A stretch of DNA of 27,657 nucleotides from a virus: positions 1 to 27,657 of the IMG/VR virus record IMGVR_UViG_3300025147_000035. The stretch is one strand, 5' to 3'. The notes beneath the pieces are model-generated. The model ran no database searches and was not told the origin of the DNA. It saw only the letters and a list, made by a program, of their open reading frames with translations. This document shows positions 6,602-16,391 of this stretch, one piece after another; position 1 is the stretch's first letter, and each line of letters opens with the position of its first letter. The position numbers and the translations under genes are program-made.

Positions 6602-8569
6602 TTAACCCCTTCGATAAACGGCGCTCGGCGTTCCGGGCATTACCGGGTTGCGGAGCAGGTCGAAGCCTTGGGCTCCCGTGAGCGGTGCGGAAGCGGCTCT
6701 GGCCATGCGCTTAACGACCACATCAGTCAGTTGCTTGCCATCCAGAAAGAACTGATAGCTGTTGTTTCCATAGTCGTCCCTTTTTCCCGGCACAGGCACA
6801 ACCAATGGATCTTTACGTCCCCACTCAGTGCGAGGCTTATCACCGAAGTGAAACTTCTGCATCTGGAATGCCGCCGGGAGAATCGTATTCATTCCGGCAA
6901 TCAGGGTGTTAAACAAGGTTTGCCAGTACAGCAGAAAGACACCCTTGAACGTCTGGAATGCCCCGGCTATGTCGCCATGGAATAGCTGGACGATGCCGGT
7001 CTTTATGTCGCTCCATATAACCTTCAGCGCGCCGCTGATTTCCTTCCAGTTGTTCCACACCGCATAGGCTGCAAGAGCGACACCGGCGATGGCCAGGCCG
7101 ATCGGGTTGGCCAGAAGAAAGATTTTGCTCAGTAGAAGAAACCCGCGACCGGCAGCAATGACCATGTTGATCAGGCCGCCAGTGATCAGGAAGCCTGAAA
7201 ACAGCGCCAGAGCGCCAACTACGTCCTTTATCTGCTGCGGGTGCTTTTCAGCGTATTGTCCGGCGACATCAAGCCAGTGCGCGAGCTTTTCAAGTCCTCT
7301 AGTTACAACCGGCAGATATACCGTACCAATAAGGGCAAGGAAATTCTTCCATGCCTCTCCAGCAGCCAGTTCGGCACCTTCCGGAGATTGCCGGTACATC
7401 TGATAGGCCTGGCCGAAGCCCATCGATTTGCCGAAAATTGCCGCATCCTTCTCAAGTTTCGATCCGCTCAATACCAGAGGACCAAGGAGCTTTGAGGTTC
7501 CCCTGTTGAAATACTTCGCTTCGATCTCGGCAACCTGCTCATTTGACAGGTCCTTGCCGAATACCCGCCGAATCGCAGGAACAAGGACGCTATCGCTAAA
7601 TAGATCAGGCCTGCTTGCGTACATCGACAGGTACTTTTCAGAGAGTCCGCCAGTAACAGGCATCATTGCAACCATCATCTTTTTAGCGTCTTTTACCGAG
7701 AGATGAAGCTTGTCGACCGCTTCTCTGGTTAGCTTTACCTGCTCCGGACTGACGCCGACCTGTAGCAGGCCAAGCTTTGCCAAAAAGCCTTTTGCTTTGT
7801 TATCCATATGGCCGCCAACGAGCGAGCTGAACGAGGTCATCAGCGACGTGCCCGCCGAATCCCCAGACTGCGTTGACATGTATCCGGCGAATTGACCGTA
7901 CAAAAACTCTTTATCAAGTAGCGCGTAAGACATGCCGCCCGTCTTAGACGCCTTGTAATATTCGTTTGGATTAACACGGCCCTTGGAGCCGAAGTAAACT
8001 TTCGACATCCTGCCAAGCTCGTCCTGAAACTCATCCGGATGCATCATTACTTTGTCGCCGCGGTGCTCGAGAGCTTTTGCAGCATTCATTACCAGGCCGT
8101 CAACATCCTTCCCGCCATTGCGGATTCTTGCCGCAATCGAAAACTGCGAGAAAGCCGGGGCATTCTCAAGTGCGTGAGGTAGATTCCCCATCGCTGTATG
8201 CAGGTCTTGGATTAGTTTGATGTTGTCGGTAATGCTCATACCCAGATTTTTATGGGCATTCATTGAGGCTGCAGCGAATACTTTCTCGTTCTCAGCGGCA
8301 CTCAGGTTTAGCGTTGAAAAATCAGCTTTCGCCTGAGCAAGCTTCTTCGCTTCGTCAAGCGGGGCCTTAAGCAGTCCCGCTATCGCTAATCCAGCACCAA
8401 ACATGGCTGCGCCGATAGCCGCCTGCTTCCCAATAGACATAAGCTTGGAGTTCAGCTTGTCCGCATCCATACCGGCATGGTTCAGTCCTTTACTGATCGA
8501 GAGCAAGCCGGGCGTAACATGGTTGATCAATGACACCTTGACGGCGACCGCATATGATTCGATCGACAT
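6602..8569 (-). CDS. Tail tape measure protein
   Basis: The largest gene of the window (655 residues) encodes the protein that sets tail length and fills the tail lumen. It has a helical N-terminus (residues 1-100), a hydrophobic segment near 50-70 (AAIGAAMFGAGLAIAGLL) and a long soluble middle. Two strongly hydrophobic stretches follow near 455-480 and 490-510, typical of tape measure proteins that form a pore in the host membrane. I start it at ATG 8569. The frame is open to a TTG at 8578, but the ATG has AGGA upstream. Its first codons overlap the promoter of the plus-strand gene at 8600, so the two transcription units compete here. Confidence 0.9.
   Translation of the reverse strand: MSIESYAVAVKVSLINHVTPGLLSISKGLNHAGMDADKLNSKLMSIGKQAAIGAAMFGAGLAIAGLLKAPLDEAKKLAQAKADFSTLNLSAAENEKVFAAASMNAHKNLGMSITDNIKLIQDLHTAMGNLPHALENAPAFSQFSIAARIRNGGKDVDGLVMNAAKALEHRGDKVMMHPDEFQDELGRMSKVYFGSKGRVNPNEYYKASKTGGMSYALLDKEFLYGQFAGYMSTQSGDSAGTSLMTSFSSLVGGHMDNKAKGFLAKLGLLQVGVSPEQVKLTREAVDKLHLSVKDAKKMMVAMMPVTGGLSEKYLSMYASRPDLFSDSVLVPAIRRVFGKDLSNEQVAEIEAKYFNRGTSKLLGPLVLSGSKLEKDAAIFGKSMGFGQAYQMYRQSPEGAELAAGEAWKNFLALIGTVYLPVVTRGLEKLAHWLDVAGQYAEKHPQQIKDVVGALALFSGFLITGGLINMVIAAGRGFLLLSKIFLLANPIGLAIAGVALAAYAVWNNWKEISGALKVIWSDIKTGIVQLFHGDIAGAFQTFKGVFLLYWQTLFNTLIAGMNTILPAAFQMQKFHFGDKPRTEWGRKDPLVVPVPGKRDDYGNNSYQFFLDGKQLTDVVVKRMARAASAPLTGAQGFDLLRNPVMPGTPSAVYRRG
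8530..8558 (+). promoter_or_regulatory. Sigma70 promoter of the plus-strand moron
   Basis: On the plus strand ATGACA (8530-8535), a 17-base spacer and TATGAT (8553-8558) match the -35 and -10 consensus at five of six positions each. The start would be near 8565, about 35 bases before the ATG at 8600. The promoter is embedded, antisense, in the first codons of the tape measure gene. Such an autonomous promoter is typical of moron genes expressed from a silent prophage. Confidence 0.7.
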
Positions 8570-8599
8570 ACTGGGCAAATCCTATTGTGGAGTTTTTGG

Positions 8600-8832
8600 A
8601 TGGCAAGGAAAGGGCGAACTTTCGAGTGGCATGGAAACAAGGTTTACGAGGATGCTGCAGAGCCAAAAAAAGACAGCGCCAAGAAACCAGAAGACCAGGG
8701 TCGGTCAAAAAACAAACTTTAGGCGCTCTAGATGCGCTCGCGCTTTTCACCTTCAGCAGCGTCCTGATGGTTTTTTCTGGTATCGCGCTGTTTGCATTTT
8801 TGTTCGCGGTGTTCGCGGTTATTTTTGGATAA
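8600..8832 (+). CDS. Plus-strand moron: 40-residue protein, or 77-residue membrane protein by -1 frameshift
   Basis: Not a family I recognise. The zero frame runs from ATG 8600 (GGAG seven bases upstream) to TAG 8722 and encodes 40 residues, basic and hydrophilic (MARKGRTFEWHGNKVYEDAA..., ending SKNKL). Codons 36-38 are tcA AAA AAC, a perfect X XXY YYZ slippery heptamer at 8707-8713. A -1 slip enters a frame that continues to TAA 8830-8832. That frame adds 39 residues, nearly all hydrophobic (LALFTFSSVLMVFSGIALF..., ending FAVIFG): a membrane anchor. The frameshifted product would be about 77 residues, a soluble head and one or two membrane spans. It has its own promoter and terminator. Alternatives are two overlapping genes or a decayed gene with a one-base indel in the A run. 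Confidence 0.6.
8707..8713 (+). promoter_or_regulatory. Candidate -1 frameshift site A AAA AAC
   Basis: The heptamer AAAAAAC is in the correct phase (A-AAA-AAC) for tandem -1 slippage, three codons before the zero-frame stop. An AGGG lies about six bases upstream. A small GGCGC/GCGCT hairpin (from about 8724) lies downstream, a modest stimulator at best. The same heptamer, in the same phase, occurs at the tail chaperone gene of this phage. Confidence 0.5.
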
Positions 8833-8837
8833 CAAAA

Positions 8838-8857
8838 AGCCCGCTCAATGGCGGGCT
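8838..8857. terminator. Bidirectional terminator between convergent accessory genes
   Basis: AGCCCGC, loop TCAATG and GCGGGCT form a 7-bp stem flanked by AAAAA on the left and TTTTTT on the right. It can end the plus-strand moron transcript (stop at 8832) and the minus-strand transcript of the gene ending at 8879. Confidence 0.88.
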
Positions 8858-8878
8858 TTTTTACGGTGTGACAACAGA

Positions 8879-9559
8879 TCACTTTATGAAGCAGTCCTCA
8901 GCAAGGACATTCATCATTAGCCCCTTTACCCGGCAAACCACGGTGAGCTTTTGCCCTTTGCGCAAACTGCCAAGCTGCTGATTCATGGAGTCATCAAAAA
9001 AAGCCTGGACGGTAGGTAGCTCATACAGCGCGCCAGTACCAAGGGTCACATAGAGGTTGTCAGTGAAGTCTTTTTTGATATCTCCAACAGCCCCTGTGAC
9101 CTGAATCAGTCGCCCCTTATATCGATTGTCCGCAGCCACCTCATTGCCTTTGTAGTCCGACAATATCTGACCGATCCCAACTTGCACAACCTGCTCTTTA
9201 GCTGGTTCGGCGGCTGGAGCAGAAATCGACGAAGATGTCGATGCACTGGATGTACTGGTAGAGCTGCTAGCTGGCCCACCTTGCATGGCGAAAAGAAGCA
9301 CTGACAGGGCTAGGTAACCAAAAGCCATAACCCTAGACTTCGTGGTGCGCCCGCGGCTAAGAGTAAACCAAGCAAAGACGATGGGGAGGACGAGTATCCC
9401 AATGACAAGCATGAAGCCAACCGGCCGAACAGCCTTATCTCGGAGACCTGCATCTATCTTTGGAATGGGTGCTCCGTGCGCCGGCCGTCCGCAGTTCGGG
9501 CATGACGGAGCTGAATCTGAAATTTCTTTGCTGCAATCCGGGCATTTAACAATTGCCAT
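8879..9559 (-). CDS. Zinc-ribbon, two-span membrane, OB-fold protein (moron)
   Basis: A 226-residue protein unrelated to tail structure. Residues 6-23 form a zinc ribbon (C6-x2-C9 ... C20-x2-C23). Membrane spans follow near 46-67 (VGFMLVIGILVLPIVFAW) and 76-94 (VMAFGYLALSVLLFA). Next comes a Ser/Thr/Ala-rich linker (about 96-120). The C-terminal domain 'GQILSDYKGNEVAADNRYKG' followed by IQVTGAVGDIKKDF and YVTLGTG resembles the tRNA_anti-like OB-fold family. The start has a purine-rich GGAAGGGAA upstream. It sits between tape measure and tail genes and is bounded on its 3' side by a strong terminator. A role in host or superinfection physiology is inference; the biochemical function is unknown. 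Confidence 0.8.
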   Translation of the reverse strand: MAIVKCPDCSKEISDSAPSCPNCGRPAHGAPIPKIDAGLRDKAVRPVGFMLVIGILVLPIVFAWFTLSRGRTTKSRVMAFGYLALSVLLFAMQGGPASSSTSTSSASTSSSISAPAAEPAKEQVVQVGIGQILSDYKGNEVAADNRYKGRLIQVTGAVGDIKKDFTDNLYVTLGTGALYELPTVQAFFDDSMNQQLGSLRKGQKLTVVCRVKGLMMNVLAEDCFIK

Positions 9560-10159: not shown

Positions 10160-10733
10160 CACTTTTGCTCCTTGAACTTCATTGAGGACCAGTCGAATTC
10201 CGCACCTTCAAATTCTGAGAAGGTGACGGACATGGCCATGCGCTCGTACTCGTTCAGGCTGTCGCACTCAAAAACCAGATGGAATGGAACCCCGCTTTTC
10301 ACCAGCCAACAGCGCTGCTTAAAGTCGGGGTTCGTGCCTAGTTTTTTGCTGCGGCCTGCTCTGCGCTGAGCGCAGCCTTTTCGTGCTCGGACTTGAGGGC
10401 TTCGTACTTGGCCATCAGGTGCTCATTGATCGCGCTCATGCCTTCGTTGCCGAGCTGGGCAAGCATCACCTCGACCTGCTTGATGCTCGACGGGAAGCCG
10501 AAGAAGTCATCGTCAATGTGCGCAACCATGGCGGCCGGCAGTGCGAAGCCGTTCATCCAGGTGCTGTTCTGTGAAACGTCGCCGCCCACACCCATCACCA
10601 GGCGCGATTGCTGCATTGGGTCGAGCTGGCGCAACTGAATCGTGCGACCCAGGCTGTCAGTGATGGTTTCAAATTTCGGCTTTTTCGGTACGTCGATCTG
10701 TTCTACGTTTTCTTTCACTGTTACGCGGGACAT
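10159..10733 (-). CDS. Frameshifted tail assembly chaperone (lambda GT-like)
   Basis: A -1 slip at A AAA AAC (10341-10347) avoids the TAG and continues for 60 codons to TGA 10159-10161, giving about 191 residues. The added domain begins LGTNPDFKQRCWLVKSG and ends DWSSMKFKEQK. It uses codons naturally, with no internal stop and no ribosome binding site suited to separate translation of its whole length. In lambda the equivalent gpGT binds tape measure and tail tube while gpG does not. The extension's stop overlaps the next gene's start, which confirms that this frame is coding. Confidence 0.8.
10338..10733 (-). CDS. Tail assembly chaperone, zero-frame product (lambda G-like role)
   Basis: A 131-residue protein immediately after the tail tube gene and before the tape measure region. 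In nearly all long-tailed phages this place is taken by the two chaperone products that coat the tape measure protein during assembly. It begins MSRVTVKENVEQIDVPKKPK, contains a conserved-looking middle (DSLGRTIQLRQLDPMQQSRL) and ends in an Ala/Lys-rich helix. The last codons are GCA AAA AAC TAG, so the gene ends directly on a slippery site. SD AGAGGAA lies upstream of the ATG. Function is assigned by position and by the frameshift. Confidence 0.82.
   Translation of the reverse strand: MSRVTVKENVEQIDVPKKPKFETITDSLGRTIQLRQLDPMQQSRLVMGVGGDVSQNSTWMNGFALPAAMVAHIDDDFFGFPSSIKQVEVMLAQLGNEGMSAINEHLMAKYEALKSEHEKAALSAEQAAAKN
10341..10347 (-). promoter_or_regulatory. Programmed -1 frameshift site A AAA AAC of the tail chaperone
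   Basis: On the minus strand the zero frame reads gcA AAA AAC TAG. The heptamer allows both tRNAs to re-pair with AAA AAA, and the stop codon follows immediately, which favours pausing and slippage. The matching -1 open frame downstream is 60 codons long. Confidence 0.82.
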
Positions 10734-15236: not shown

Positions 15237-16391
15237 TCAGCCGAGCAAAAGCGAGCAGTGCTCAGGCTTAACCATTGCAACGCCCCAGGCCACGGCGACT
15301 TCGTACTGGATCTGACGGTATTGCTCGTAGATCGAGATTTCGAAGGTCAGGCCGCTCACCGGGTCAGTGATCAGCATGCGGTCCTTGGCGCTGTCGCCGC
15401 CGGCCGGCAGTGCTGGCGCGCGGGTAGCCAGCGCGATTGCCGACTTGGCGAATGCCATGTTGCGGGTACTGGCAGCAACGATGGTGATTGCAGTAGCGGA
15501 CGCTGGGATCGCCTTGCGCAGGCCTGGAGCCGCCAGGGTGATGGTGCCGCCGTTGGAGGCGTCTGTGTCGCCATAGGCGAGCACGTATTTGTTGGTGTCG
15601 CCAGCAAAAGCAATGGCGTCACCAGCCAGCAAGGTGCCGGTACCAGCCACGGCCAGGGTGATAACAGTGGCGCCAACGGCGTACCCGGCGGTGTTGGTGG
15701 TGGCAGAGGCGCCCGTACCAGCAGCCACGGTCTTGACCTGAGCGGACTCGCGGATCGCGAAGCCGTGGATGTCCAGCAATACGCCGCGGCGCAGCATGCT
15801 GGTGTCGTCGGCCTCATTGGCCTTGGTCAACTGAGCCAGGGTACGCATGTTGGCGCCGGCCGAGGTGTCGATGACCAGTTGCAGGTCGCTCATCGGGGAG
15901 CCGTTGTCGGCCAAGATTTTGCGCATCTGCGCTGGATCGGACAGGTTCGAGGCGAAAGGCGTCGAGCCGGCAGTGCCGTACGCGCGAGAGGCCTTGAGGT
16001 GCAGTCCGGCGAGGTCGGCTTCCATCTCGTTGACCAGAGCCCGCATGGCCTGAGTGAACTGGTCACGCAGGATGATGTTGTACGACGCGCCATTGTTGTC
16101 CAGCCCGCGCTTTTCCTCGCCGTTCCAGCGTACCGGTACCCGGCGAGCCTTCTGGATGGTCATCGACACGGAGCCGATGGTCTGATCACCATCGTTCGGC
16201 GGAGTCACTGCCGGAGTGATGTCGGATGCGGTTGCAGCCGGCGCCACAGGCGAGGTAACGGTTTGGCCCACGGCAGCGCGGTCAAAGGTCATGTCGGACG
16301 ATACGGCTGGCACGAAGCCGACCAGTTCGCGGGACACTTTGTCCATCGCGTTGTAGATCGTGGTAGTCAGGCCGGTAAGGGAGTTGCTCAT
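15237..16391 (-). CDS. Major capsid protein, P22 coat-like
   Basis: A 384-residue coat protein that forms the icosahedral shell with help of the scaffold encoded upstream. It begins MSNSLTGLTTTIYNAMDKVS, has 'VPVRWNGEEKRGLDNNG' near 85-100, and ends 'GLTFEISIYEQYRQIQYEVA' then VAWGVAMVKPEHC. That ending is the P22 coat family type: a last beta strand with an aromatic-rich E-loop-like stretch. Residues about 225-300 (AGYAVGATVITLAVAGTGTL, then a 'GDAIAF' turn) look like a compact inserted beta domain comparable to the I-domain of P22 coat. AGGAG precedes the ATG by seven bases. Confidence 0.85.
   Translation of the reverse strand: MSNSLTGLTTTIYNAMDKVSRELVGFVPAVSSDMTFDRAAVGQTVTSPVAPAATASDITPAVTPPNDGDQTIGSVSMTIQKARRVPVRWNGEEKRGLDNNGASYNIILRDQFTQAMRALVNEMEADLAGLHLKASRAYGTAGSTPFASNLSDPAQMRKILADNGSPMSDLQLVIDTSAGANMRTLAQLTKANEADDTSMLRRGVLLDIHGFAIRESAQVKTVAAGTGASATTNTAGYAVGATVITLAVAGTGTLLAGDAIAFAGDTNKYVLAYGDTDASNGGTITLAAPGLRKAIPASATAITIVAASTRNMAFAKSAIALATRAPALPAGGDSAKDRMLITDPVSGLTFEISIYEQYRQIQYEVAVAWGVAMVKPEHCSLLLG

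Follow-up and report, generated by a model that had tools for sequence, protein, structure and literature searches.

A small gene divergent from the tape measure gene

The window, a 27,657-base virus record from IMG/VR, carries its late genes on the minus strand. Beside the tail tape measure gene lies a small unit of the opposite orientation, whose features are given below together with the neighboring genes that are relevant to its interpretation.

6602–8569, minus strand: tail tape measure gene, the divergent neighbor (PHROG 28; N-terminus alignment)
8530–8558, plus strand: candidate sigma-70 promoter ATGACA-17-TATGAT, matching the consensus at 10 of 12 positions, inside the tape measure gene
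8589–8592, plus strand: Shine-Dalgarno-like GGAG, 7 nt before ATG 8600
8600–8722, plus strand: frame-0 open reading frame of 40 codons, from ATG 8600 to TAG 8720–8722 (sequence and family profile)
8665–8671, plus strand: A7 run at which the family frame changes (alignment to L003); reads A AAA AAA in phase with frame 0
8671–8832, plus strand: −1 frame with the family linker and predicted C-terminal transmembrane helix, to TAA 8830–8832 (profile match)
8707–8713, plus strand: A AAA AAC, in phase with frame 0; two Lys codons in the family frame
8834–8861, both strands: bidirectional intrinsic terminator with a 12-bp hairpin (−17.6 kcal/mol, z −4.0), flanked by A and T runs
8879–9559, minus strand: convergent gene for a zinc-ribbon and tRNA_anti-like membrane protein (PHROG 8545, PF12869)
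10733–10338, minus strand: tail-chaperone gene, ending GCA GCA AAA AAC TAG, with the heptamer A AAA AAC at 10342–10348

The promoter, GGAG, ATG 8600, the 40-codon frame, A AAA AAC, the open −1 frame (39 nearly all hydrophobic codons, through 8829) and the terminator had all been pointed out in the original prediction, and each is present where it was placed. The coordinates and strands also bear out that the unit opposes the late operon and that its candidate promoter falls within the tape measure gene. Since it has both this promoter and a terminator hairpin of its own, the unit appears self-contained, as had been proposed. The slippery site described there does exist at 8707–8713, while the second in-phase heptamer at 8665–8671 had been overlooked.

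The tape measure gene most likely starts at ATG 8569 (MSIESYAV, with the N-termini aligned), with 8578 as the alternative. In a 2.5-kb scan, three promoter-like sites of the quality of 8530–8558 were found versus 1.9 expected, so the match is weak when taken alone. It is a consensus match only. The same position is GTGACA-17-TATGCT (9/12) in L003 and L005, and other relatives have an extended −10 element (TGCCATAAT) 13 bases further downstream. At the other end of the unit, the 27-base stretch 8831–8857, which overlaps the terminator, is repeated with 93% identity at 1754–1779, near the end of the gene range 5–1771.

A family of small membrane proteins and its partner genes

When the joined (frame-fused) product was used as the query, the relatives first found were L003 and L004, each of which has one unbroken frame. 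Profiles built from the first relatives, with L012–L014 among the matches, extended the set to 22 loci, and when residues 1–50 of the tape measure protein served as the query, 59 usable loci with a related tape measure N-terminus were obtained. The small gene is directly divergent from the tape measure start in 48 of these 59 loci and unbroken in 47; L005/L033 adds one unbroken homolog, which gives 48 other IMG/VR contigs with one intact frame. The records total 50, including L005/L033 and the source record, and they represent about 41 distinct intact proteins of 62–90 aa (the copies in L064 and L065 are intact and 80 aa long). The only other broken copy, that of L031/L072, has an additional G (GGGG versus GGG) in TGGGGTGAATGG, where L027 has TGGGTGAATGG; this break is far from any slippery run.

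Nearly all members begin with MA..RT(Y/F)xW (as in MA..RTYQW) or a close variant. The linker is usually basic (Lys/Arg-rich) and variable in length, being reduced to a few residues in L022, L025 and L030. It leads to a C-terminal block of about 32 uncharged residues, which is preceded by basic residues and has at most one basic residue beyond it. AlphaFold predicted a single long helix for the L003 protein (residues 43–76), with pLDDT above 90 over most of it. The membrane anchor of the original prediction is retained in that the full-length product is predicted to be held in the membrane by this one C-terminal hydrophobic block, and from the positive-inside rule we infer a single-pass protein with a cytoplasmic N-terminus.

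The original statement that no described family resembles this protein held when it was compared with Pfam and PHROG profiles, none of which scored above the cut-offs. Likewise, tblastn of the small protein and two partner proteins against annotated phages gave no match, and two scans of genome contigs for relatives of the small gene found none. What emerges is a family of small membrane proteins that had no annotation and whose genes accompany the tape measure gene in about 50 phage contigs. This family, which bears no Pfam or PHROG label, is a more lasting result than the question of the frame. A differently sequenced small open reading frame occupies the same divergent position upstream of the tape measure gene in L007, L089, L090, L091 and L092. 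It runs opposite to the tape measure gene, has one hydrophobic stretch (MGYLRRVHEWAADKGWAQYP...) and may represent either a second family or a relative at great distance.

In about 40 of the 50 records, a second gene begins a few nucleotides downstream of the small gene. The partners are of several kinds, namely 155-aa secreted proteins, 102-aa secreted GEYGCED proteins, zinc-ribbon membrane proteins and lipoprotein-like proteins, and their exchange behind a constant small gene is seen in L003, L004, L012, L013, L014 and L017–L033. Those partners that were scanned with Pfam and PHROGs gave no match beyond zinc ribbons and PHROGs of unknown function. The source record is without a plus-strand partner and has the terminator and the convergent gene there. 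This gene (8879–9559), which stands where the relatives have the plus-strand partner, encodes a product that matched PHROG 8545, "superinfection exclusion Sie-like" (E 8e-23), and PF12869 (E 1.6e-19).

Position and nature of the frame break

Codons 1–24 of the frame-0 open reading frame correspond to the family N-terminus (MARKGRTFEWHGNKVYEDAAEPKK), and its last 16 codons are out of the family frame. The profile of the relatives matched the −1 frame with an E-value of about 1e-27 and the N-terminal frame with one of about 6e-9; judged from this match, the −1 frame is clearly coding and a chance origin is ruled out. The joined protein aligns without gaps to that of L003, the closest intact relative, with 68% identity, provided that the switch of frame is placed at the A7 run, directly behind EPKK. 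The source copy is one nucleotide short of L003 at this run, 42 bases upstream of the 8707 site. Read in the family frame, 8707–8713 is GTC AAA AAA CAA and corresponds to GCC AAA AAA GAA in L003. The right phase of A AAA AAC at 8707–8713 arises because these Lys codons are seen one base out of frame, and A AAA AAA is in phase at the A7 run because two Lys codons are read out of frame after the loss of a base.

The hydrophobic part might also need no shift at all if translation began in the −1 frame itself, which is open from ATG 8554 (ORF 8554–8832, 92 codons). However, this ATG falls inside the −10 box, the spacing of GGAG fits ATG 8600, and the relatives begin at the homolog of ATG 8600, all of which makes such a start extremely unlikely.

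A programmed −1 shift at 8707–8713, as originally predicted, or at 8665–8671 would give rise to a soluble 40-residue form and a membrane-anchored 77-residue form. The presence of both slippery heptamers in phase, the full preservation of a −1 frame that evolves as coding sequence, a GAGG about 13 nt before the A7 run and a fold directly after this run in one of two window sizes (z −2.3 in 59 bases) are consistent with such a switch. However, no relative shares the phase break; the search for homologs instead returned 48 loci with unbroken frames, and the break maps to the A7 run and not to 8707–8713. In the relatives, in-phase slippery heptamers are few and at differing places, and frame 0 there already yields the membrane form. 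Neither A run is conserved, because the variable linker, in which both are situated, nearly vanishes in L022, L025 and L030. Downstream of 8707, the RNA folds no better than expected by chance (z 0.03; about 0 in two windows), and the structure after the A7 run is lost in the longer window (z −0.07 in 89 bases). A programmed shift, and with it the proposed switch between the two forms, is thus very unlikely, and we remove the site from the candidates for programmed frameshifting.

The tail-chaperone gene of the same record, which has a −1 extension of 60–62 codons (60 in the source record, in the 10240–10348 region), looks quite different in this respect. Its heptamer, extension and strong downstream hairpin (z −2.8 in the source) are kept in every relative examined, and by these sequence features it is a genuine programmed frameshift of a known kind. 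The −1 frameshifts of tail chaperones are well known and have been reviewed (PMC5009743). Whereas the small gene resembles the lambda G/GT-type tail assembly chaperones in having A AAA AAC, at 8707–8713, conservation of the heptamer, of the hairpin and of the −1 extension is seen for the chaperone gene and not for the small gene.

The sequence A AAA AAA G is intrinsically slippery, and it is plausible that some full-length product is made; spontaneous slippage in vivo is usually rare (PMC9307594). A survey that sought functional slippage at nine-base A or T runs inferred it at runs of eight in some species (PMC1088944), so the A7 run is short for transcriptional slippage, which was considered at this site. 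It seems hardly probable that slippage at the A run, whether ribosomal or transcriptional, or a reversible lengthening and shortening of the run acts as a newly evolved switch, in this lineage only, that controls how much soluble form is made relative to the membrane form. In the unbroken small gene of L005/L033 (L033:5001–5255), the linker contains an in-frame A9, a slippage-prone length.

The break is most likely either the loss of one letter or a sequencing (homopolymer) error, the two being about equally probable on the present data. In the helix part of the −1 frame, the differences from L003 are distributed over the codon positions as 7/8/21, with a bias to the third position; those in the 17-codon linker (8/2/5 in the −1 frame) are too few to assign selection to either frame. 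As the membrane part is intact and its differences favor third positions, a real break would have to be recent. A near-identical copy, by which the break could be dated or compared with a second assembly, was sought among viral contigs with DNA patterns across the A run (A6 to A9) and the helix region, and none was found.

An error of sequencing or assembly, by which the record of an unbroken phage gene lost one base in the A run, is a substantial possibility, though short of an even one. No A run in the gene is longer than the one where the break falls, the membrane part is conserved throughout and shows no decay, and the family copy in L031/L072 also has a homopolymer difference. On the other hand, the late genes that were compared with their relatives contain no further frame break, which speaks mildly against a generally noisy record, and apparently intact genes contain two more A/T runs of 7 bases. 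The chance is close to even that a true recent frame mutation occurred in a moron undergoing decay, perhaps once the partner had been lost and a zinc-ribbon gene had been inserted or inverted next to it. The lack of the plus-strand partner and the convergent gene in its place fit this course of events; however, no partner was detected in L032/L056 and L078–L085, and the small gene is still intact there.

Possible role of the small gene

As a whole, the locus is very probably a reverse moron that encodes a member of an unlabeled family of small membrane proteins, with the source copy frame-broken at the A7 run. Transcription of the small gene would start within the tape measure gene and run counter to the late operon, and its product would consist of a soluble N-terminus, a Lys/Arg-rich variable linker and one long C-terminal hydrophobic helix. 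In most relatives it is the first gene of a two-gene unit, the second of which encodes an interchangeable exported or membrane protein. In the source record, the second gene is absent and the first is broken by one nucleotide at 8665–8671, whether through a recent indel in nature or through a homopolymer error of the record. Given a real break, the chief product would be a soluble fragment of 40 residues, and any membrane form would arise only by incidental slippage.

The moron reading is plausible, and we infer, besides the membrane topology, that the gene is expressed in the lysogen and that its product acts at the cell envelope. From position, topology and analogy, superinfection exclusion would be the most plausible such role, though taken by itself it is less likely than not. 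HK97 gp15, a moron, is described as a predicted protein of the inner membrane that prevents DNA from being injected (PMC10883804). Its gene product is likewise small (62 aa) with one hydrophobic helix, and the gene has its own putative terminator and adjoins the tape measure gene in the tail operon; gp15, however, is on the late-operon strand and its helix is N-terminal. Comparison of the family with gp15 by hhalign gave a probability of 0.2%, with no detectable sequence similarity, and homology was rejected on this ground. The "reverse moron" HK97 gp23 is, by its annotation, also a small gene that opposes the late operon and has a putative terminator to itself; it occupies a different place in the tail operon. 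Owing to its usual swappable envelope-protein partner, the family may be regarded as a candidate modular, lysogen-expressed exclusion unit.

Elsewhere in the window, a P22-coat-like major head protein (15237–16391, minus strand), 78% identical to its counterpart in Acinetobacter phage vB_AbaS_qsb1, is combined with a contractile (sheath-bearing) tail module.
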